This document shows positions 39,316 through 49,645 of a stretch of DNA of 64,000 nt, in pieces. A model generated the notes under the pieces. That model was given only the letters and a program-made list of their open reading frames with translations. It had not been told where the DNA came from and did no database searches. The stretch covers positions 1 to 64,000 of the forward strand of contig NZ_CP023777.1 of the NCBI RefSeq assembly GCF_002557795.1, read 5' to 3'. This DNA comes from Chitinophaga caeni. Lineage in GTDB: Bacteria; Bacteroidota; Bacteroidia; Chitinophagales; Chitinophagaceae. The number at the start of each line of letters is the position of its first letter. The stretch's first letter is position 1. A program made the translations under genes and the position numbers.

Positions 39316-39349
39316 AAAACCCGACCAACTGTAAGAACAGTTAGCCGGG
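39314..39349 (-). terminator. Terminator between convergent genes
   Basis: Arms 39320-39332 and 39337-39349 pair at 11 of 13 positions around a four-base loop, followed on the minus strand by six T (39319-39314). It ends the HAD-GT20 fusion transcript and may also act on the plus-strand gene ending at 39315. Confidence 0.85.
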
Positions 39350-39371
39350 CATTATGTACAGCTATTACCTC

Positions 39372-41654
39372 CTAATGAACTTGTTCACCGACAGCTTCCG
39401 CTACTTCGTTTAATGAAATCCCGGATTTATCCATTTCTTCCATAAACTCTTTAGCCCAGTAATCGATCGTGTAATGGCTCACCGATTCGTACAAACGTTT
39501 CATACGGATCTGGCGTTCCTGCGGATCCATAACGAGCGCTTTCAACAAGCTTTCCTTCATGGACTTCCGATCGTAAGGATTGGTGAACACGGCATGCGGC
39601 ATCTCGACTGCGGCGCCGGCAAATTCCGACAGCACCAGGACACCATCTGCATTTTTATTAACACCCTGGGCGGCCACATATTCTTTCGCCACCAGGTTCA
39701 AGCCATCTCTCAGCGGGGTGATCCAAGCCACATCGGACATCGCGTAATACGCCACGATATCTTCGAAAGGCATCGCCCTGAAGAAGAAATGTATCGGTGT
39801 CCAATCCATACGGGAGTACTTCCCGTTGATCTTTCCAACCGCCTGTTCCAATTCTACCTGGATGCGTTCATAGATCTTCATCCCGCTTGAAGGCGGGGTG
39901 CAGATATTTATCAGCTCCACTTTTCCGCGGAATTCAGGGTATTCATCCAAAAATTGTCCGAAAGCCTTAATTTTTTCGAGCGGTCCTTTCACATAATCCA
40001 ACCTTTCTACGCTCAGGATAATTTTCTTACCCTCGGTTTGAGATCTTAACCGCTTGATAAGATCACGGGTATCATCTTTTTCCACCACTTCCTTGATATA
40101 CTTGGCATGAATCCCTACAGGATTGGCTCCTAACCTTACAATACGCCGCCCCGTATCAATTTCCGTGGTCATTTTATTGATACCCATAGCGCAGCTATAG
40201 GTCAGGTAGCGGGGAGCGCAATTTACCTGTTCGCGGATGGCAACATTCATCATGCTGCGCACCACGTCTACGAAGTTTTCAACATACCTTGGGATATGGA
40301 AAGAGATATAATCGCATTGCAATAAGCTGCTGATGATCTCCGTGCGCCAAGGAATCACGTTAAAAGTGTTGGCAGCAGGGAAAGCGGTATGATGGAAAAA
40401 ACCGATTTTGAGATCGGGTCTTAATTGCCTTAAATAGCCGGGCACCATCCACAAATTGTAATCATGCACCCAAACGGTAGCGTTCGGCTCCGCTTCTTCG
40501 GCAGCTTTTTCAGCGAATAATTTATTTATTTTAAGATAATGTTCCCAATGTTGATGGTTGAACTGCACCTTATCTATAAAAGAAAAGATAGCTGGCCAGA
40601 AAGCTTCCTTGGAGAATAATTTATAGAAGACCTCCACATCGCGTTGATTCAATAGCACCGGACTTCCTACCAGGTTTGGATATTCCTCTTCATCAATTTT
40701 AAAGTTCGGCGCTTTCGCCTTTTTATCCTTCGTTTCTTGCCAGGCCACCCAAACACCGGAACGACCACCTTTAAAAAAGTTTGTTAAAGTAGGTAGTATG
40801 CCATTAGGACTTTTCGGGGGCACTTTCATCATTTGCCCGTTCACTTCTTTCATTTCGAAAGGGAAACGGTGATAGAGCATCATCAACTGGTCGGAGGGAG
40901 TTTCATCATCCAGGTGGTATTTATCTTTTTTATCTTTCTTAAGGAAAGGATCGAATTCTTTGAAATGCTGCATCGCTTCCAAGATACCGCCTGCGCCGGC
41001 ATCCTCAGCTTGGTAAACATGGTCGAAATCCGCCGTAGCCTCTGCTAAGGCAGGTTCGGGATTTCCAACAACCACGCCTTTAAAGCCGGCATTATATAAT
41101 GACAGGTCATTGAGCGTATCCCCGGCCACCAGCACCCTTTCCGCGGGTTCTTGCAGCAGGTTGATCAACTGTTGCAAGGTGCTGCCTTTATTCACATCTT
41201 GCGGCAATACATCGAGGTATCTACCCGCAGAAACGATGATATCACAATGTAACTTTTCTTCTATGAATGCAACTTTTTTCTGGATATCAGGATCATCGAA
41301 AAAGTAAGAGCAACGGCGTTGTTGCGGTACCGGCTGAACCACGAGATCATTCACTCCCTTCATCATTTCAGACACCACTCTCCTACCGGGCCATTTCAGC
41401 TCGATATTGTTTTGAATAGGCTGCACCGGTTCCAATGTAAAACCATTGAGAACGGTAGCACCCACATCGCAAATTATATAATCAGGTTTAGGGATTACCG
41501 GGTCACTTAACAGCGGTAAAACACTTTCTACACCACGACCCGTAACAAAAATCAATCTAAAATCCTTGTTCTTTCGAATCAGGCTATACAAGCGCTCTTT
41601 ACTTCTTTCGCTGCCGCCTAAAAAAGTTCCATCGAGGTCTGTAGCTAGTATCAT
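39372..41654 (-). CDS. ggpS: HAD phosphatase / GT20 fusion, likely glucosylglycerol-phosphate phosphatase-synthase
   Basis: Cytosolic bifunctional enzyme of 760 residues. Residues 1-240 are a HAD-IIB phosphatase: DLDGTFLGG nucleophile motif, FVTGRGVESVLPLL, VLVAGDTLNDLSLY. From about residue 280 a GT20 glycosyltransferase follows. The linker-start SPNGILPTLTNFFKGGRSGV, VWVHDYNLWMVPGYLRQLRP, FFHHTAFPAANTFNVIPWR, DYISFHIPRYVENFV and DVAWITPLRDGLNLVAKEYV closely follow cyanobacterial glucosylglycerol-phosphate synthase as I recall it, more than OtsA. Fused GgpPS proteins with an N-terminal HAD domain are known in other bacteria. The reaction would be ADP-glucose plus glycerol 3-phosphate to glucosylglycerol. 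gpsA lies immediately upstream, supplying that acceptor. A trehalose-6-phosphate synthase is the alternative. Confidence 0.85.
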   Translation of the reverse strand: MILATDLDGTFLGGSERSKERLYSLIRKNKDFRLIFVTGRGVESVLPLLSDPVIPKPDYIICDVGATVLNGFTLEPVQPIQNNIELKWPGRRVVSEMMKGVNDLVVQPVPQQRRCSYFFDDPDIQKKVAFIEEKLHCDIIVSAGRYLDVLPQDVNKGSTLQQLINLLQEPAERVLVAGDTLNDLSLYNAGFKGVVVGNPEPALAEATADFDHVYQAEDAGAGGILEAMQHFKEFDPFLKKDKKDKYHLDDETPSDQLMMLYHRFPFEMKEVNGQMMKVPPKSPNGILPTLTNFFKGGRSGVWVAWQETKDKKAKAPNFKIDEEEYPNLVGSPVLLNQRDVEVFYKLFSKEAFWPAIFSFIDKVQFNHQHWEHYLKINKLFAEKAAEEAEPNATVWVHDYNLWMVPGYLRQLRPDLKIGFFHHTAFPAANTFNVIPWRTEIISSLLQCDYISFHIPRYVENFVDVVRSMMNVAIREQVNCAPRYLTYSCAMGINKMTTEIDTGRRIVRLGANPVGIHAKYIKEVVEKDDTRDLIKRLRSQTEGKKIILSVERLDYVKGPLEKIKAFGQFLDEYPEFRGKVELINICTPPSSGMKIYERIQVELEQAVGKINGKYSRMDWTPIHFFFRAMPFEDIVAYYAMSDVAWITPLRDGLNLVAKEYVAAQGVNKNADGVLVLSEFAGAAVEMPHAVFTNPYDRKSMKESLLKALVMDPQERQIRMKRLYESVSHYTIDYWAKEFMEEMDKSGISLNEVAEAVGEQVH

Positions 41655-41730
41655 AATTTTAATTTAAAGGTTAACGAAACCGCGAAAGTTCCGCATAAAA
41701 GAATGTTAGTAGTATTACCAACATTTATAT

Positions 41731-42729
41731 TTATAGGAGCGAATGCTCCAATAGCTGAAATTCTAAATAAGGGGATGCGTGATTGTAGAGTACGCGGTAC
41801 ATCGCGGCAACGATGGGCATATGCACATCGAGCTTTGTCGCGATCTGGTATATTCCCTTCACGGCGTAATACCCTTCGGCTACCATGTTCATATGAGCCT
41901 GGGCCTCGGGGACGGGGTAACCACGGCCGATCATTTTACCGAACGTCCTGTTACGGCTAAATTCGGAATATGCGGTTACAAATAAATCGCCAAAATAGGC
42001 AGATTGCGTAAGATCACGGGGTATATCATCAACGGCTTGCAGGAATTGCTTTACTTCACGCAGCGCGTTACTGACGAGAACGGCGATAAAGTTATCCCCG
42101 TAATTCATTCCCGTAGCGACGCCCACGGCGATTCCTACCACGTTTTTCAATATGGCTGCGTATTCGACCCCAATCGGATCATAATTCGCAATGGCCTTGA
42201 TATGGTGTGACTGTACCCAACCGGTTAGTTGTTGTACAATTTCTCGATCCTTTCCGGCGATCGTCATGTATGTTTTCCGATCGAGCGCGATTTCTTCCGC
42301 GTGGCAAGGACCACCGATCACGAACACATCTGATGTTGGAATATTAAAGAACTGCTGCAAGAAAGTTGACGGCACGAGATTCTCGGCACCTACAACCCCC
42401 TTGATAGATACAATAACTTTTTTCCCCTCGAAATTAAATTCCTTCCAGTCGGCAATGGTAGCTGCTAAATAGGCCGAAGGCACAGCAAATAATATGTAAT
42501 CTGAAGCGTCAATAGCCTCTTGTGCATGGTGGGTAGGATAAATATTATCGCGATTGAGCTCCAGGAAACTAAGATAGTTGCGATTCCGCTTGTGCTGTTT
42601 AAAGTATGAAACGTTCTCCTCCGATCGGAGTAACCAGGTGATTTGGAGCCCACCCTCTGCAAATATTTTCACTAATGCCGTTGCCCAACTACCACCGCCT
42701 ACAATCGTAAGCCGTGTCGAATTGGTCAA
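41731..42729 (-). CDS. gpsA: NAD(P)H-dependent glycerol-3-phosphate dehydrogenase
   Basis: Reduces dihydroxyacetone phosphate to glycerol 3-phosphate. Rossmann motif VGGGSWATALVKIFAEGG at the N-terminus; FAVPSAYLAATI; VSIKGVVGAENLVPSTFLQQ; FVIGGPCHAEEIALDRKTYM; catalytic-lysine region YAAILKNVVGIAVGVATGMN; and the C-terminal MNMVAEGYYAVKGIYQIATK region. I prefer a TTG start at 42729. The frame stays open upstream to a TTG at 42843, but a TATCTTTG promoter box inside that extension would place the transcript start near 42760. The GT20 fusion gene follows 76 bp downstream, so G3P may feed glucosylglycerol as well as lipids. Confidence 0.9.
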   Translation of the reverse strand: MTNSTRLTIVGGGSWATALVKIFAEGGLQITWLLRSEENVSYFKQHKRNRNYLSFLELNRDNIYPTHHAQEAIDASDYILFAVPSAYLAATIADWKEFNFEGKKVIVSIKGVVGAENLVPSTFLQQFFNIPTSDVFVIGGPCHAEEIALDRKTYMTIAGKDREIVQQLTGWVQSHHIKAIANYDPIGVEYAAILKNVVGIAVGVATGMNYGDNFIAVLVSNALREVKQFLQAVDDIPRDLTQSAYFGDLFVTAYSEFSRNRTFGKMIGRGYPVPEAQAHMNMVAEGYYAVKGIYQIATKLDVHMPIVAAMYRVLYNHASPYLEFQLLEHSLL

Positions 42730-42766: not shown

Positions 42767-42774
42767 CAAAGATA
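42767..42774 (-). promoter_or_regulatory. Bacteroidetes -7 box (TATCTTTG) for gpsA operon
   Basis: Exact minus-strand TAnnTTTG. The predicted start near 42760 leaves about 30 nt before the TTG at 42729. It lies inside the longest open frame of gpsA, which argues for the shorter protein. Confidence 0.55.
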
Positions 42775-42996: not shown

Positions 42997-43896
42997 TCAA
43001 TTGCCTTTAACATTGATGACCCTTGAATGCACTCTACCGTAACCATTCAGCACCATTTTACCCGGGTATAGCTCCACGGTAGCATAGGCGTTCTGACCAG
43101 CCGTTTCCACCATACCTTCTATAACAATGCATGGTATCCCGGCGATGAGACAGTAGGCCCCTTCGTGGTGGTGACCGGCAATCAAAGCCTTTACACAACT
43201 GAACTTTGAGACCGTCGCCACGATTTCTTTTTTATTCAAAGCCGTTAACCCATCTGCGCAACCCATCGGGTGATGGGAGAAAATAAGCACGTACTCCCCC
43301 TTCTCCTGCGAGGCTTCCAATTCTTCTTTCAACCATTGCACCTGTTTACTACTGATACCGCCGTTGTAAGCGGCCGCATTATGCCCTCCTTCCTTCTTAA
43401 TTTTTTCGAACATACTTTTAAGTTCGGGTTCTTTCCAAGTACCTTCCACGTTAGAATAACTGGCAACCTCGTTGGTATTCAGTAGAACAAATTTCCAGTT
43501 CCCCCTTTTAAATGAATAATATTCACCTGGCATTTTAAGTTTTTCATACAATAAGCGGTTATCCTTCAAACCGCTATAATCGTGGTTTCCCGGGGTATTA
43601 TACAGCGGTTGCTCCAGTTTATCCAGGATATGTAGCACCGTATCTAGATCTTTTTGATCCCGATCGATCACATCTCCCATATTAATTGTAAACTCTACAT
43701 CTTTTGAATTAATGTCCCCCACGCAGCTTTCCAGCTTAGAGAGTGAGTTCCTGTAAAAGCGGCTTCCTTTCGTATCACTATCAGCATACTGTATATCACT
43801 TAATAAACCGAAACGGATCAATGGTTTTCCTTGCTGCGCGGTGCAATCCAAAAGCAAAACCATTCCCAACAAGCTACAAATAAGAAATTTTTTCAT
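42997..43896 (-). CDS. Exported metallophosphoesterase (ADP-ribose/CDP-alcohol pyrophosphatase-like)
   Basis: Calcineurin-like phosphoesterase of 299 residues with a signal peptide and a Cys near residue 18 that may be lipidated, although LLDC is a poor lipobox. Metal motifs: FGLLSDIQYADSDTKGSRFY, INMGDVIDRD, NTPGNHDYSG, LIFSHHPMG and ALIAGHHHEGAY. SDIQYAD with RFYRNSL resembles the Mn-dependent ADP-ribose/CDP-alcohol diphosphatase group. It is separated from the JetC gene by a terminator and faces the same way, so it is probably not part of that operon. Confidence 0.87.
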   Translation of the reverse strand: MKKFLICSLLGMVLLLDCTAQQGKPLIRFGLLSDIQYADSDTKGSRFYRNSLSKLESCVGDINSKDVEFTINMGDVIDRDQKDLDTVLHILDKLEQPLYNTPGNHDYSGLKDNRLLYEKLKMPGEYYSFKRGNWKFVLLNTNEVASYSNVEGTWKEPELKSMFEKIKKEGGHNAAAYNGGISSKQVQWLKEELEASQEKGEYVLIFSHHPMGCADGLTALNKKEIVATVSKFSCVKALIAGHHHEGAYCLIAGIPCIVIEGMVETAGQNAYATVELYPGKMVLNGYGRVHSRVINVKGN

Positions 43897-44135: not shown

Positions 44136-47100
44136 TTACATTACTACTTCCCCGTTACCCGCCAACACATTCTCCTGTAGCTCCTTGATCGTCATATTAT
44201 ATAATACGCTGTGCCTATTATTAACCCTTTGAACGAGGTGTACATGGGCGATGAAGTTTTGTACGACCTGGATTTTATCGCTCGGCGTTACAACGAGTAA
44301 TTGTAAATGCAATTGTTTACATAATTCCATGAGGTAGGTCGCCTTCTCCTCATCCTGGTTGCTAAAACTTTCATCTACAGCGATAAACCTCAGGCTGCGC
44401 GCGTTCTTACCTTCCCTGGTAATGCCAAACTGGTAAGCAATAGCGCTACATAAGATCGTATAAGTCAACTGTGCTTTTTCTCCCCCGGAGAGCTGCCCCA
44501 TTTGGCGGTAGGTCTTCTTCACTTCGCCGGTGTCGCGGTAACGTTCGTCAGCCCAAAATTCGAACCAATTTCGAACATCCATCACGCGGCTACGGTAAGC
44601 TTCGTTTTCATCGAGCAAAGAAATGAGCGGCGCCACTTTCTCTTGGAAATGCATCGCTTTATTTTCAAAAGACTCCTGTTGCCAATTGGTGGTTTGGGGT
44701 AAAGCATCGAGCAACCTGTTTTTAAATTCCTTGATCTCCGTACCGGAGGGAACCGGGCGTTTGCCAAGTTCGATATACGTTTCCGGGTGCCTGTTAAAGT
44801 TGATACCTTTTAATGATTCGTTCAACTTCTTGATATTATTATTGATATCGCGTTCCCATTTCTCGATTTCTTCGTTTAAACCACCAATTTTATAGGTGAT
44901 GGTAATATTAATATAGTTTTCAAAATCCTTTTTATACCGGGGTAAGTTTTCTGTTACCAGGCGATCCAACCATTCTAAATATTCACCCGCATGCTGCGCA
45001 TCATCGGAGAGAGGCTGCACATCCGCTAGCCAGCCCGGGAATTGCTGCAACAACTCGGGCGAAGGATTTTTTAGTTTGCCGATAGCCCTGTCCAACAACA
45101 CTTTTTCCTTGTACTCATCTTCCGCGCTGCGCTTCAAGGACTGTTCCTTGTCCTGTTTTAACTGCTGGTAGACCCGGTCGATATTCTGCAAATTCAATTC
45201 ACCTAAATCCGCACCATGCTGCTGTTGGAACTGCAACAAAGCATCTTTATCCCCATCAGTAACATGTTGCAACAATGCGGACAACATTTCCTGTTGTGAC
45301 AGCATCGCTTGGATTTCCTGCTGAACGAGCGCTTCATCACGGATCAGTTGCGTATGCTTTTCGTTGGTGGCATCTTTTTGCGACTTCAATTCTTGCAATT
45401 GCAATTTCAACGCATCCAGTTCCTTATTTTCTTTCCGTAAAGACGCTACCTGCTCATGTAACTTATGGATTTGCTTTTGAATTTTGGCAACATCCAATGC
45501 ATCGTAACCCGGCAGCTCCTGCAAACGGCTCAAGGCATAAAATTGCTTTTGTAAACGTTGGGAACGGTGTTTACAAGTTTGCAACATATCATTAGCGCTT
45601 TGCAGGTCATCCCCTAACTTGTTCCTTTTCAGTATAAGCGCTTCTTTCTTTTTCTCGTTATTCCATCCCATCACGTAGCGGGAAGGATCATTTTTTTCTT
45701 GGCGATCGTCTTTTTCATGCCGATCATAATTCTTTATCAAGCCATTGATCGTGATCGCTTTATCGTATTTTCCCAGGAGTTTTTCATTCTCAACACAAAC
45801 GTGATCAAACTGTTGGATGACCTGGTGTTTTACCCATTCAGCCAACTTATTACTAGGATGAAATTCCAGTTTATGATACACCGTATCTTCACCCGGAACC
45901 AGCATGATTACATCATCATGAATACGGTTAAAGACGAGGCGTGTACGGAGGTTATTATTGTTTACGTAATGCGTTACCTTTTTGTAATATTTATCCGGGA
46001 CCAGTAATCGCAAGGCAAATGAATGCAGCAACTTTTCCAATGCAGGCTGCCAGTCTAACTCTTCCGGCGCCACTTGCATCAGCTCTCCCGCGAAAAGAAT
46101 TTCGTTCGGATCAACTTTCAGCGATTGGCAAATCTCTTTCCTAAGATTTACCAAGTGGGGTGGAATATTATTCTTCGATTGATGCAATAATTCGATCTCC
46201 TTTTCCAACTCTTCCTTACCGGACAGGGCCTTTTCCTTCGTTCTTTTCGCATCGTATTCATCTTCATCGTTAAGGCGTTGTTCGTGTTCCAGTATTTTCG
46301 ATACCCTACCCGCATCTTTTATAATCCTGTTGAATGCAGCTTCACTATTAACCTCCTTCTCCTTTAAAGGCAATGCTTGGCACCAGTCATGAACAATTTG
46401 CAATTGTTGCATGGCAGCTTCCCTGGATTTCTCAAGGTCGATGATATCCTTTTCTAACTGCTGCACCACTTGCCCCGCCTTATTTTTCTCCACCAGGTTT
46501 TGTGCGGATCTTTCCTTTTCGAGCAATACATCTATCTCATCGCGGGTTCCGGCCAAGCGCTTGGAGATCAATTTCAACTCTTTGGCATTCGCTTCCAACC
46601 CTTCAGCCAACAGGGCATTCTTGGTATAGCTATTCCAGATTACCGCGGTATCCAGTTGCTGCTGAAGTTGTTTAGATTTATCGCGGTGGTGGCTGTAAGC
46701 ATGATAATGATCCTTGATCTTTTCAAGCATTTCTATTTGCACCGCCGTTTTATCGATATTTCTCTGGGCATCGAGCAAGGTGGTAAGATGACCTTTCAGC
46801 TCCTGGAATTGATCTTCCATATTACGCGGTTCCAACATGTGGGTACGGATAAATTCATCCAAGTTCCCCAGCACCTTGATACCCACGGTTTGGTTGAATA
46901 ATTGCAGCGCCTGCGCACTTTGCATTCCCATTACATCCACCATCCGGGCAGCGTATTTGCTGGCGGCATCAAACCATTCCACCAGTTTACGGTTGCCTTT
47001 ATTGTACCTTTGCTCTAGGCGCTTTTTCCAGGCATTATTGAAATCGAAAGGCGTAAAATCATCCCCGATGTGCAGTTCACGGTGCGAAATACCGAAGACC

Positions 47101-47543
47101 CGCTTCATATCTCCATTTGAAAAATAACGTACCTGGAACAAGGTTACATCCTGTTCGGCTTCATTTGCAAAGTTGGCTAACAGGATACTGTAAGTCTCCT
47201 CCTTCTTTTCCCTTAAATAAAGTGATTTCGTGGTACCGTTGGCTTCGTTATTGACCGTACCGTAACCACCCATTACGTAAGACTCTTCCGTACGATCCCC
47301 TTTTTTCTCGCTGCCGCTGCTTTGGTTATAAAAGCGGTAACGTTTCTCTGGCACCACCAGGGTTAGCAGGGCATCTATAAAAGTTGTTTTACCGCTACCA
47401 TTGCTACCTGTGAGCAAGCTCGTATCGCCGGCAGGGTTAATTGTATGTATTTGTTCATCAAAGGTTCCCCAGTTATAGACTTCCATGAACTGTAAGCGGA
47501 AACCATTCTTTTCACTATCGGTACTAAATACGTTCAGTTGCAT
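44136..47543 (-). CDS. jetC: Wadjet/Mks-type SMC-like ATPase JetC
   Basis: Condensin-like ATPase of about 1135 residues. N-terminal head: GTFDEQIHTINPAGDTSLLT, Walker A GSNGSGKTTFIDALL. Two long heptad-rich arms (residues about 270-480 and 640-930) flank a central hinge-like region with ALRLLVPDKYYKKVTHYV. C-terminal head: signature QLSGGEKAQLTYTI, Walker B LRFIAVDESFSNQDEEKATY. ATG 47543 has AAAAAAGGAATT before it. An in-frame TTG at 47570 overlaps the jetB stop and is an alternative. In Wadjet, JetABC is a loop-extruding complex that senses circular DNA. The usual partner JetD nuclease gene is missing downstream. Confidence 0.93.
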   Translation of the reverse strand: MQLNVFSTDSEKNGFRLQFMEVYNWGTFDEQIHTINPAGDTSLLTGSNGSGKTTFIDALLTLVVPEKRYRFYNQSSGSEKKGDRTEESYVMGGYGTVNNEANGTTKSLYLREKKEETYSILLANFANEAEQDVTLFQVRYFSNGDMKRVFGISHRELHIGDDFTPFDFNNAWKKRLEQRYNKGNRKLVEWFDAASKYAARMVDVMGMQSAQALQLFNQTVGIKVLGNLDEFIRTHMLEPRNMEDQFQELKGHLTTLLDAQRNIDKTAVQIEMLEKIKDHYHAYSHHRDKSKQLQQQLDTAVIWNSYTKNALLAEGLEANAKELKLISKRLAGTRDEIDVLLEKERSAQNLVEKNKAGQVVQQLEKDIIDLEKSREAAMQQLQIVHDWCQALPLKEKEVNSEAAFNRIIKDAGRVSKILEHEQRLNDEDEYDAKRTKEKALSGKEELEKEIELLHQSKNNIPPHLVNLRKEICQSLKVDPNEILFAGELMQVAPEELDWQPALEKLLHSFALRLLVPDKYYKKVTHYVNNNNLRTRLVFNRIHDDVIMLVPGEDTVYHKLEFHPSNKLAEWVKHQVIQQFDHVCVENEKLLGKYDKAITINGLIKNYDRHEKDDRQEKNDPSRYVMGWNNEKKKEALILKRNKLGDDLQSANDMLQTCKHRSQRLQKQFYALSRLQELPGYDALDVAKIQKQIHKLHEQVASLRKENKELDALKLQLQELKSQKDATNEKHTQLIRDEALVQQEIQAMLSQQEMLSALLQHVTDGDKDALLQFQQQHGADLGELNLQNIDRVYQQLKQDKEQSLKRSAEDEYKEKVLLDRAIGKLKNPSPELLQQFPGWLADVQPLSDDAQHAGEYLEWLDRLVTENLPRYKKDFENYINITITYKIGGLNEEIEKWERDINNNIKKLNESLKGINFNRHPETYIELGKRPVPSGTEIKEFKNRLLDALPQTTNWQQESFENKAMHFQEKVAPLISLLDENEAYRSRVMDVRNWFEFWADERYRDTGEVKKTYRQMGQLSGGEKAQLTYTILCSAIAYQFGITREGKNARSLRFIAVDESFSNQDEEKATYLMELCKQLHLQLLVVTPSDKIQVVQNFIAHVHLVQRVNNRHSVLYNMTIKELQENVLAGNGEVVM

Positions 47544-47566
47544 AATTCCTTTTTTGAATCCGGCTA

Positions 47567-48166
47567 TCAATTTTGTGCTGCCGCTGCTTGTTCTTTCCTT
47601 TCTTGAAGTTGTTGCTGAAATTGATCCAGCACATCGCCGTCAACTTTTGCTTTAATCATCTTCCGGATACGGAACTTCTGTTCATCGGGGTGCTCCAGGT
47701 GTTCTACTAATTGCAAGAAACCATGTTCTTCCATCTTGTCGATCAGTCGATCGATCTCTTTGAGGAATTTAATCCTACTGGCTTGCTCTTTAAAAAACAG
47801 TTCCGCGTATTCCTTGATCTCGATACGCTTCTTGATCAATTCCCTCGTGGTAGCTTCGCTCAATTCAAATTCTGCGAGCATTTCCCTCAGTAATACCAGC
47901 ATTACACTTTCTTCGTATGTAAATGTTCTGCGTTGCATCCAAGTCACTTCAGCCGCATCTTCTCCGTTAACTAAATGCTTCAGGTACGCGTAACCGTCTT
48001 GTTCATCCACGACTAAAATTAAGCCGAGTTGTTGTAAGAAGCTAGCAAGTTCATGTTGGAATTGCAGCAACTTTTCCCAGTTGCTTTTATCAAGATACTC
48101 TAATGGCCCTTTCAGCAATTTCACGATAATGCCGGCATAGGGTAATATTTTCTGGTTCGAATTCAT
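47567..48166 (-). CDS. jetB: Wadjet/Mks subunit JetB (DUF4194, MukE-like)
   Basis: Small soluble protein of 199 residues with the DUF4194 pattern: IVKLLKGPLEYLDKSNWEKL, LKHLVNGEDAAEVTWMQRRT, TFTYEESVMLVLLREMLAEF, then KEIDRLIDKMEEHGFLQLVE and RKMIKAKVDGDVLDQFQQQL. By family it is the winged-helix MksE/MukE counterpart binding the SMC-like ATPase. It starts 12 bp after the jetA stop, and its stop overlaps the possible TTG start of jetC, indicating translational coupling. Confidence 0.92.
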   Translation of the reverse strand: MNSNQKILPYAGIIVKLLKGPLEYLDKSNWEKLLQFQHELASFLQQLGLILVVDEQDGYAYLKHLVNGEDAAEVTWMQRRTFTYEESVMLVLLREMLAEFELSEATTRELIKKRIEIKEYAELFFKEQASRIKFLKEIDRLIDKMEEHGFLQLVEHLEHPDEQKFRIRKMIKAKVDGDVLDQFQQQLQERKEQAAAAQN

Positions 48167-48178
48167 CTTTTCTGGCTC

Positions 48179-49645
48179 TTATTTTCCGAACAACAGGTAT
48201 GGCACCTCGATAAACTTGGTAGCTTCGCTATTGAGCGGTATATGTTCAGTAGTGTTATTAACGATATATGCATGTGCGGCTTTATCTTTCAGGAAGCTGA
48301 AGTAAGCGATTATATCAGCTAATCCATTTTCAAGCGGGTGAACTTCCAGCACTTCTTTCAGGGTAGCTGTTTGTTTGGAGATCAATACTTCCTGGACCCT
48401 GCCCCACAATATTTTCTTATCAACATGCCGGGTGTTCAACATCTTGCCCAACCTTTCGAAATCAGCAACTGCCTTGTGGGCATCCGCCGGCTGGCGGGCT
48501 TCTTGAACGGTATTTTTCTGTTCCAGCGATATTTTCCGGTCCAATGTCATCTTAATTTCCACGGCATCTTCCCATTCCATCCCGCAATTCACATCATCTT
48601 CTTCCATCAGTTCAAACACCAGTTCCTTAATTTGTCCAATCTGCTTGCGGAGTCTCCGGTGCCGCGCAATCTCCCGTTCCGTAACGATGCGGCTCAACTT
48701 TTCTGCCATCTTATCATTCGATTCGTAAACTGCCTTCCCTTGTTCCAACAGCATCGACTTGATATCTGACAAGAAATGTTCATCGCAATCTATCTGGCGA
48801 TCCCGTAAAATTTCGAGTAATTTCCCCGTTAGTTCGCGCCATTCTTCTTGTCCTGCCCTGGAAACCAAAAAATCCCAGAAGGCATAAAAACTTTTGCCTT
48901 GGTTGCTACTTCTCAAGGCATCGTATGCTTCGAAGGCGAAGCCCAAGATATCCCCTTTATGGTAAGATTCCTTGGTATGTTGTTCTACGATGGCACGGTG
49001 GATCTGTTTAAAATTATCCTCTACTTCCCTAAAATCGCTGATCAACGTGTAACAGAGTTGCGTAAAAAGTTCCAGGCGTTCCGAAACCTGCGCATTATTA
49101 TACCGGTCGGGGACCACGCCTAGTTCCAAAGCCTTGATTTCCTTATCAAGTTCAGCCCTTTTCTGCTTAAGGGTTTCGAGGCGCTTGGCACGGTCATCCT
49201 CCGTATTTTCAACGATATCGCGAAGGGAATTGAACAGGAGTTTGAAACGGCTTTCCGTACCGACATGCTGGCGCAATTGTAATGTTTGTACCCATTGAAA
49301 TACTTTCTCCGTATGGGCAGAAAGTTGGTAAATCGTGCTTCCATCGCTGGCGGGCAGGTCTTGCAAGAGACGGCGCTGCACCCATAACTGTATATATTTC
49401 CGGCTACGGGAAGCATCATCCTCCCCGAAAGCAAAGATAACATCTTCCGCATCTTCCAAGCCGCCGTCCTGGTTGGCTAAAAGATCTGCCAATACCTGTA
49501 CCAATTCATTTCCCGGGATTGAAAACCTATTTTCCTCCTTGAACACGCCGAATAAAAAGGGTAAAACCCAGTGAGCATTGCGCATGCGGAGCATTTGCAA
49601 TGCCGGGGAAGCGTTGTACAAGGATGAAAACTCTTCTTTTGTCAT
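48179..49645 (-). CDS. jetA: Wadjet/Mks subunit JetA (DUF3375, MukF-like)
   Basis: Kleisin-like subunit of 488 residues with the DUF3375 pattern: ALQMLRMRNAHWVLPFLFGV at the N-terminus, helical middle section (RDIVENTEDDRAKRLETLKQ), HKGDILGFAFEAYDALRSSN, and a C-terminal region with WGRVQEVLISKQTATLKEVL and ADIIAYFSFL. ATG 49645 has an AGGAGATAGGAA-type ribosome binding site. It is the first gene of the jetA-jetB-jetC operon, as in Wadjet type I; jetD is not found on either side. Confidence 0.92.
   Translation of the reverse strand: MTKEEFSSLYNASPALQMLRMRNAHWVLPFLFGVFKEENRFSIPGNELVQVLADLLANQDGGLEDAEDVIFAFGEDDASRSRKYIQLWVQRRLLQDLPASDGSTIYQLSAHTEKVFQWVQTLQLRQHVGTESRFKLLFNSLRDIVENTEDDRAKRLETLKQKRAELDKEIKALELGVVPDRYNNAQVSERLELFTQLCYTLISDFREVEDNFKQIHRAIVEQHTKESYHKGDILGFAFEAYDALRSSNQGKSFYAFWDFLVSRAGQEEWRELTGKLLEILRDRQIDCDEHFLSDIKSMLLEQGKAVYESNDKMAEKLSRIVTEREIARHRRLRKQIGQIKELVFELMEEDDVNCGMEWEDAVEIKMTLDRKISLEQKNTVQEARQPADAHKAVADFERLGKMLNTRHVDKKILWGRVQEVLISKQTATLKEVLEVHPLENGLADIIAYFSFLKDKAAHAYIVNNTTEHIPLNSEATKFIEVPYLLFGK

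Follow-up and report, generated by a model that had tools for sequence, protein, structure and literature searches.

Does the gene for a two-domain GT20 protein in Chitinophaga caeni direct the synthesis of glucosylglycerol (GG) or of trehalose, and what is the role of the glycerol-3-phosphate dehydrogenase gene gpsA directly in front of it? The locus lies on contig NZ_CP023777.1 of assembly GCF_002557795.1, of which positions 1 to 64,000 of the forward strand were analysed; "the window" denotes this whole stretch of 64,000 nucleotides. The window genome belongs to the Chitinophagaceae and is near Chitinophaga skermanii. We consider it about 85% probable that the two genes form a glucosylglycerol unit, gpsA-ggpPS, in which a dedicated GpsA paralogue supplies glycerol 3-phosphate; the reactions, the glucose donor, the co-transcription and the induction by stress are what we infer from the sequence. 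The locus comprises the following features:

39319..39350, (-) strand: terminator-like hairpin of 14 pairs with a T-rich tail, after ggpPS (7 such sites in the region, 3.9 expected)
39372..41654, (-) strand: ggpPS, predicted bifunctional glucosylglycerol-phosphate phosphatase/synthase, 760 amino acids (TIGR02398 with 653.4 bits, PF05116 and PF00982, tree)
39420..40892, (-) strand: C-terminal GT20 glucosylglycerol-phosphate synthase domain of ggpPS, about residues 255-745
40946..41654, (-) strand: N-terminal SPP-type HAD phosphatase domain of ggpPS, residues 1-236 (catalytic D6, D8, T38, K156, D179, D183)
41731..42729, (-) strand: gpsA, the dedicated second gene for glycerol-3-phosphate dehydrogenase, probably starting with TTG at 42729 (PF01210, PF07479, PF20618)
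42767..42774, (-) strand: TATCTTTG, which fits the -7 element of Bacteroidetes (TAnnTTTG) and lies some 40 bp upstream of gpsA (motif search)

The fused gene and its surroundings

The HAD phosphatase domain is located N-terminally of the GgpS domain in a single open frame of 760 amino acids, which is the arrangement of a GgpPS fusion. An alignment revealed that all six residues to which we assign the catalytic motif roles (D6, D8, T38, K156, D179 and D183) are present in the window protein, and D6, D8, K156, D179 and D183 do not vary across the 123 loci compared, duplicate loci included. The HAD part resembles the sucrose-phosphatase family (PF05116; one among the 50 matches listed), which leaves room for other phosphatase families. 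The initial annotation proposed that this domain could dephosphorylate the product of the synthase, and the retained catalytic residues support this role. The window protein is a bifunctional GgpPS, for which both phosphatase and synthase activities are predicted. Flavihumibacter sp. ZG627 encodes an additional stand-alone HAD phosphatase directly 3' of its fused ggpPS (L014, 8384-9103), which is 51% identical to the HAD domain of the window protein.

The element upstream of gpsA matches TAnnTTTG, the Bacteroidetes -7 consensus. This motif precedes five of 11 linked gpsA genes, compared to 0.77 expected, and is lacking in the other six; across the whole window it is found 55 times with 66 expected and is thus in no excess over chance. 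Likewise, sigma70-type promoters show no excess in the search (7 found, 9.2 expected). From this layout, we infer a two-gene transcription unit gpsA-ggpPS.

A mechanosensitive channel gene of the MscS family and a Na+/H+ antiporter gene, which the initial annotation noted in the wider neighbourhood, are about 11 and 14 kb away, and their membership in the unit is not supported. MscS-family genes are present within the fetched stretch in four of 18 Bacteroidota loci (two members Pfam-checked), and an MscS-family cluster occurs in seven of 20 chosen fused loci (one member Pfam-checked). Examples near ggpPS are found in some Chitinophagaceae (L101, 4224-5312; L095, 4503-5609) and in a cluster of the Pseudoduganella/Massilia type (L025, 8239-9504, a member of the latter cluster). 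It is plausible that such a channel serves as a release valve for the solute. Upstream of the unit, the window carries JetA1-JetB1-JetC1 (44136-49645, (-) strand), a Wadjet-type or MksBEF-like SMC complex with strong PADLOC matches. The next gene downstream of these three encodes a metallophosphoesterase (43000-43896), so no JetD follows in order.

Pairing of ggpPS with a second gpsA

The linked GpsA matches PF01210 and PF07479 above the cut-offs and retains the GpsA-invariant residues K111, K196, N197, D249 and R260; its start is the same in C. skermanii. The other gpsA copy of the window genome is located at 1514389. With the NCBIfam GpsA models, the linked copy scores at best 251 against a cut-off of 257 and reaches none of the 14 models listed, and its housekeeping counterpart in the window genome scores 249.4 against 257. 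Among other linked copies, that of C. skermanii passes (258.6 against 257) and those of loci L093 (237.4) and L014 (229.5) are below.

Two gpsA genes are also found in C. skermanii and in Flavihumibacter. At least two gpsA (PF07479) matches are present in nine of the 15 family genomes with ggpPS but in only one of the 132 without it (Fisher p 7e-10 over 147 family genomes, kinship ignored), and the two matches of this sole exception, G128, are weak (best E 1.7e-22). In the phylum sample, the window genome alone of 61 has two gpsA genes. Moreover, gpsA is the most recurrent neighbour in the Bacteroidota, present in 12 of 18 ggpPS neighbourhoods, one of the 12 being internally deleted, and the next cluster of real neighbours reaches four of 18. 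Ten of the 11 intact linked genes lie upstream of ggpPS on the same strand at a distance of 12-146 bp, the gap in the window being 76 bp; at the eleventh locus (L095), some 2 kb separate gpsA from ggpPS and the two genes are on different strands. The sequence of locus L098 stops about 320 bases upstream of ggpPS, before any neighbour. The internally deleted copy, in genome G030 (L104, 9410-10171), appears to be a decaying remnant of the pair. Both the recurrence in neighbourhoods and the counts of two-copy genomes with and without ggpPS argue against gpsA as a chance neighbour, a reading that was rejected; the early observation that gpsA lies just upstream in the same direction is confirmed and extends beyond the window. 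In the window genome, the gpsA in front of ggpPS is an additional, dedicated copy. The paralogue is not essential, as ggpPS is accompanied by just one full gpsA in six of the 15 family genomes (from three genera) and in G256, which belongs to a different family.

Sequence identity of the linked GpsA is 78% with its linked counterpart in C. skermanii and 39% with the other GpsA encoded by the window genome. C. skermanii DSM 23857 has the same two genes, and its GT20 domain is 83% identical to that of the window. The linked proteins form a single clade within the Bacteroidia-type GpsA, with support of 99/98 in a first tree and of 100/100 in a class-level tree, for which 19 rows of the first tree were dropped (12 housekeeping, seven alphaproteobacterial) and eight of 30 phylum loci were used. 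Over 11 loci, the GpsA and GgpPS trees have six of eight splits in common; the splits found only with GpsA are weak (66/76 and 64/77), and those found only with GgpPS are stronger (92/89 and 89/89). The linked GpsA thus appears to be largely co-inherited with GgpPS.

A long stem branch leads to the linked clade (0.82 in the first tree, 1.01 in the class-level tree), and 14 positions separate the two kinds of GpsA, with one residue in 10 or more of 11 linked rows and a different one in 28 or more of 32 housekeeping rows. Such divergence would be expected if the enzyme is a GgpPS but the linked GpsA has been neofunctionalised, acting on another substrate or as a regulatory partner of GgpPS instead of simply supplying glycerol 3-phosphate. 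However, the residues invariant in all rows are kept, including K111, K196, N197, D249, R260 and N261, the linked residue at six of the 14 positions is the commonest one in proteobacterial or cyanobacterial rows, and alphaproteobacteria and some cyanobacteria also join GG genes with glycerol-3-phosphate dehydrogenase genes. We therefore regard neofunctionalisation as improbable and retain the dedicated supply of glycerol 3-phosphate as the role of the paralogue.

A scan for relatives with one genome per species yielded 430 candidate stretches, 424 of which encode a relative. The best 80 of these 424 loci, which were analysed, belong to Bacteroidota (3), proteobacteria, Myxococcota, Gemmatimonadota and one cyanobacterial MAG. 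In nine of 19 translated loci the protein is fused (three Bacteroidota, three gammaproteobacterial or unclassified proteobacterial, one alphaproteobacterial MAG, one Myxococcales and one Gemmatimonadetes), and in the other ten a stop separates HAD and GT20 (seven Rhodobacterales, Tistrella, Simplicispira and the cyanobacterial MAG). The GgpS cut-off is passed by 15 of 147 sampled genomes of the family and by two of 395 genomes of the phylum, the window genome counted. A gpsA match was found in 47 of the best 80 of 424 loci; two of these are Bacteroidota, and in the 45 others, from Rhodobacterales and other alphaproteobacteria, gpsA lies just upstream. The GpsA of the alphaproteobacterial gpsA-ggpP-ggpS loci groups with proteobacterial GpsA, and forcing it into one clade with the linked GpsA of the Bacteroidota costs 152.7 log-likelihood units (p 5.7e-7). 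A single inherited unit was rejected on these grounds, and the pairing arose at least twice, since the linked GpsA proteins of the two groups do not form one clade. In cyanobacterial neighbourhoods, a glpD-like gene, recognised by eye from the start of its protein, follows ggpS in seven of 10 cases, three of which also contain gpsA; the legend of a review figure names glpD, glpK and gpsA together with ggpS (PMC6753628). Based on the Bacteroidota, alphaproteobacterial and cyanobacterial neighbourhoods, GG genes lie beside glycerol-3-phosphate dehydrogenase genes in three phyla. Three actinomycete plasmids (NZ_CP108290.1, NZ_CP081497.1 and NZ_CP108785.1) carry relatives in which a single tblastn piece spans both domains, HAD and GT20, with 34-35% identity; these are annotated as HAD-IIB hydrolase at most.

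Assignment of the GT20 domain

The initial annotation placed the GT20 part closer to GgpS than to OtsA and asked for a phylogeny with references of both kinds. The window GT20 domain passes the NCBI curated GgpS equivalog model TIGR02398 with 653.4 bits against a cut-off of 569, but stays below the threshold of the OtsA model TIGR02400 (426.5 bits, cut-off 564.85). In a tree of 64 rows, which sampled 10 of 30 listed TPS loci, 25 of 77 non-Bacteroidota loci and eight of 11 cyanobacterial loci, the domain falls within a GgpS clade that includes eight cyanobacterial rows and is separated from OtsA/TPS with support of 100/99 (52 versus 12 rows); the tree program warned that two long OtsA branches join the remainder at the root. 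All 19 Bacteroidota rows cluster together (100/100). The alignment further shows that the position of Arg301 in E. coli OtsA (counting Met), a residue with a role in binding glucose 6-phosphate, holds Arg in all 12 TPS/OtsA rows and one of Ala, Asn and Ser in each of the 52 rows of the GgpS clade. The window protein carries Ser589 there, and the Arg of the acceptor site is absent. At the level of sequence, the original assignment is supported, with no placement with OtsA.

The GT20 fold is common to OtsA, all 50 Foldseek matches listed are trehalose-phosphate synthases or GT20 kin, and the window protein is about 30% identical to E. coli OtsA. Other GT20 genes are also more frequent in the family, with a GT20 above the cut-off in 43 of the 132 genomes that lack ggpPS. 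These points would suit a trehalose-6-phosphate synthase/phosphatase fusion that makes trehalose next to an incidental gpsA. This explanation is nonetheless very unlikely, as the protein fails the OtsA models and passes the GgpS model, groups with GgpS in the tree, has lost the Arg301 position, carries a HAD part that matches the sucrose-phosphatase family and is associated with gpsA; an identity as OtsA/TPS was rejected. Even less credible is a product such as glucosylglycerate, made by glucosylation of another, related three-carbon acceptor: sequence by itself does not fix the acceptor range of a GT20 enzyme, but the known synthases of glucosylglycerate are members of other GT families, gpsA supplies glycerol 3-phosphate and cyanobacterial GgpS rows sit in the same clade. 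A second GT20 is absent from the window genome and from all 15 family genomes with ggpPS, compared to the 43 of 132 others with a GT20 (Fisher p 0.006, kinship ignored). This mutual exclusion is at most a family-level pattern, because Tistrella (G148) and Pseudoxanthomonas (G152), both outside the family, carry both; these are two of the six named-locus genomes, drawn from inside and outside the family.

Proposed pathway and known systems

In the proposed glucosylglycerol pathway, the dedicated GpsA paralogue would reduce dihydroxyacetone phosphate to glycerol 3-phosphate, onto which the GT20 domain of GgpPS would transfer glucose to give GG-phosphate. The fused HAD domain would then strip the phosphate, and the resulting GG may, as a compatible solute, protect the cell from salt or drying. 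With a second gpsA, the cell could raise the supply of acceptor on demand and leave the housekeeping copy for lipids untouched. The glucose donor is most likely ADP-glucose made by GlgC; the window genome encodes a glgC above the cut-off, elsewhere in the genome, which adjoins a glgA of the starch-synthase type and can, by prediction, supply ADP-glucose. The GgpS of Synechocystis is reported to require ADP-glucose and not to use UDP-glucose (PMC6004087). A galU-like nucleotidyltransferase gene (e.g., L062, 3563-4600; one member Pfam-checked) lies near gpsA-ggpP-ggpS in 20 of 33 alphaproteobacterial loci, which were picked from those with a gpsA match, so that this number is not a rate; such a neighbour may fit UDP-glucose as the donor in alphaproteobacteria. 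A gene of the GG-phosphorylase type (TIGR03852) was not found in the window genome and is above the cut-off in one of 19 genomes searched, which counts against the GG route.

In Synechococcus, co-expression of glycerol-3-phosphate dehydrogenases with ggpPS is reported to increase GG by 26-42%, and by 26% with the GpsA used (PMC8168540), which makes a gpsA beside GG genes plausible; a benefit of glycerol 3-phosphate supply for GG production is thus already on record there. We tentatively propose, with more doubt than confidence, that such paralogues were recruited for GG independently at least twice, as Bacteroidia-type GpsA in Chitinophagaceae and as proteobacterial-type GpsA in alphaproteobacteria, that this marks in Chitinophagaceae a switch of the GT20 solute from trehalose to GG, and that regulation of the paralogue was altered, e.g., by release from feedback inhibition. 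Should the paralogous GpsA prove resistant to feedback, GG production could use it as a ready-made part. Among the literature matches listed, no report of GG synthesis in this Bacteroidetes group was found, and the locus would extend GG synthesis to the Chitinophagaceae. What is seen here is probably known GG enzymology in a little-noticed host group. The more interesting part would be the duplicated, dedicated precursor gene, a natural experiment in which such a gene was duplicated, diverged and was passed on together with the pathway that uses up its product, a pairing reached separately in alphaproteobacteria.

The initial annotation regarded a complete GG route in two adjacent genes as notable. 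The two-gene unit stands; two genes do not suffice, as ADP-glucose is also needed and glgC lies elsewhere, and the HAD-GgpS fusion itself is not new, because GgpPS is already known in proteobacteria. Fused proteins are described for Stenotrophomonas rhizophila, Pseudomonas mendocina, Azotobacter vinelandii and Marinobacter adhaerens (PMC10873239). The Fig. 1 legend of the same paper also names a fused ggpPS for the cyanobacterium Nostoc ellipsosporum NOK, which contrasts with the unfused ggpS in all 11 cyanobacterial genomes above the cut-off; contamination of the NOK assembly is a possibility.

Proteobacterial GgpPS has the same domain order as the window protein, with an N-terminal GG-phosphate phosphatase and a C-terminal GG-phosphate synthase, and the one-frame proteobacterial loci compared, which do not include the four published proteins, are 46-53% identical to it over nearly the full length; the Bacteroidota proteins, however, form a separate clade. 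In cyanobacteria, GgpS and a separate GgpP are found; the GT20 domain falls in the same clade as that of the window, but ggpS is unfused in the 11 of 98 genomes above the cut-off (open frames of 495-590 amino acids), and gpsA, nearer to the gammaproteobacterial type, lies downstream of ggpS instead of upstream. The alphaproteobacterial gpsA-ggpP-ggpS loci (e.g., Salipiger, Jannaschia, Rhodovulum) resemble the window in that gpsA lies directly upstream, followed by HAD and GT20, whereas a stop codon divides the two in the eight loci checked, the fused MAG locus L033 excepted, and their GpsA is of the proteobacterial type and not in one clade with the linked GpsA of the Bacteroidota. Finally, the window ggpPS is paired with a dedicated gpsA, whereas that of Marinobacter is reported with a downstream GG phosphorylase gene (PMC10873239).
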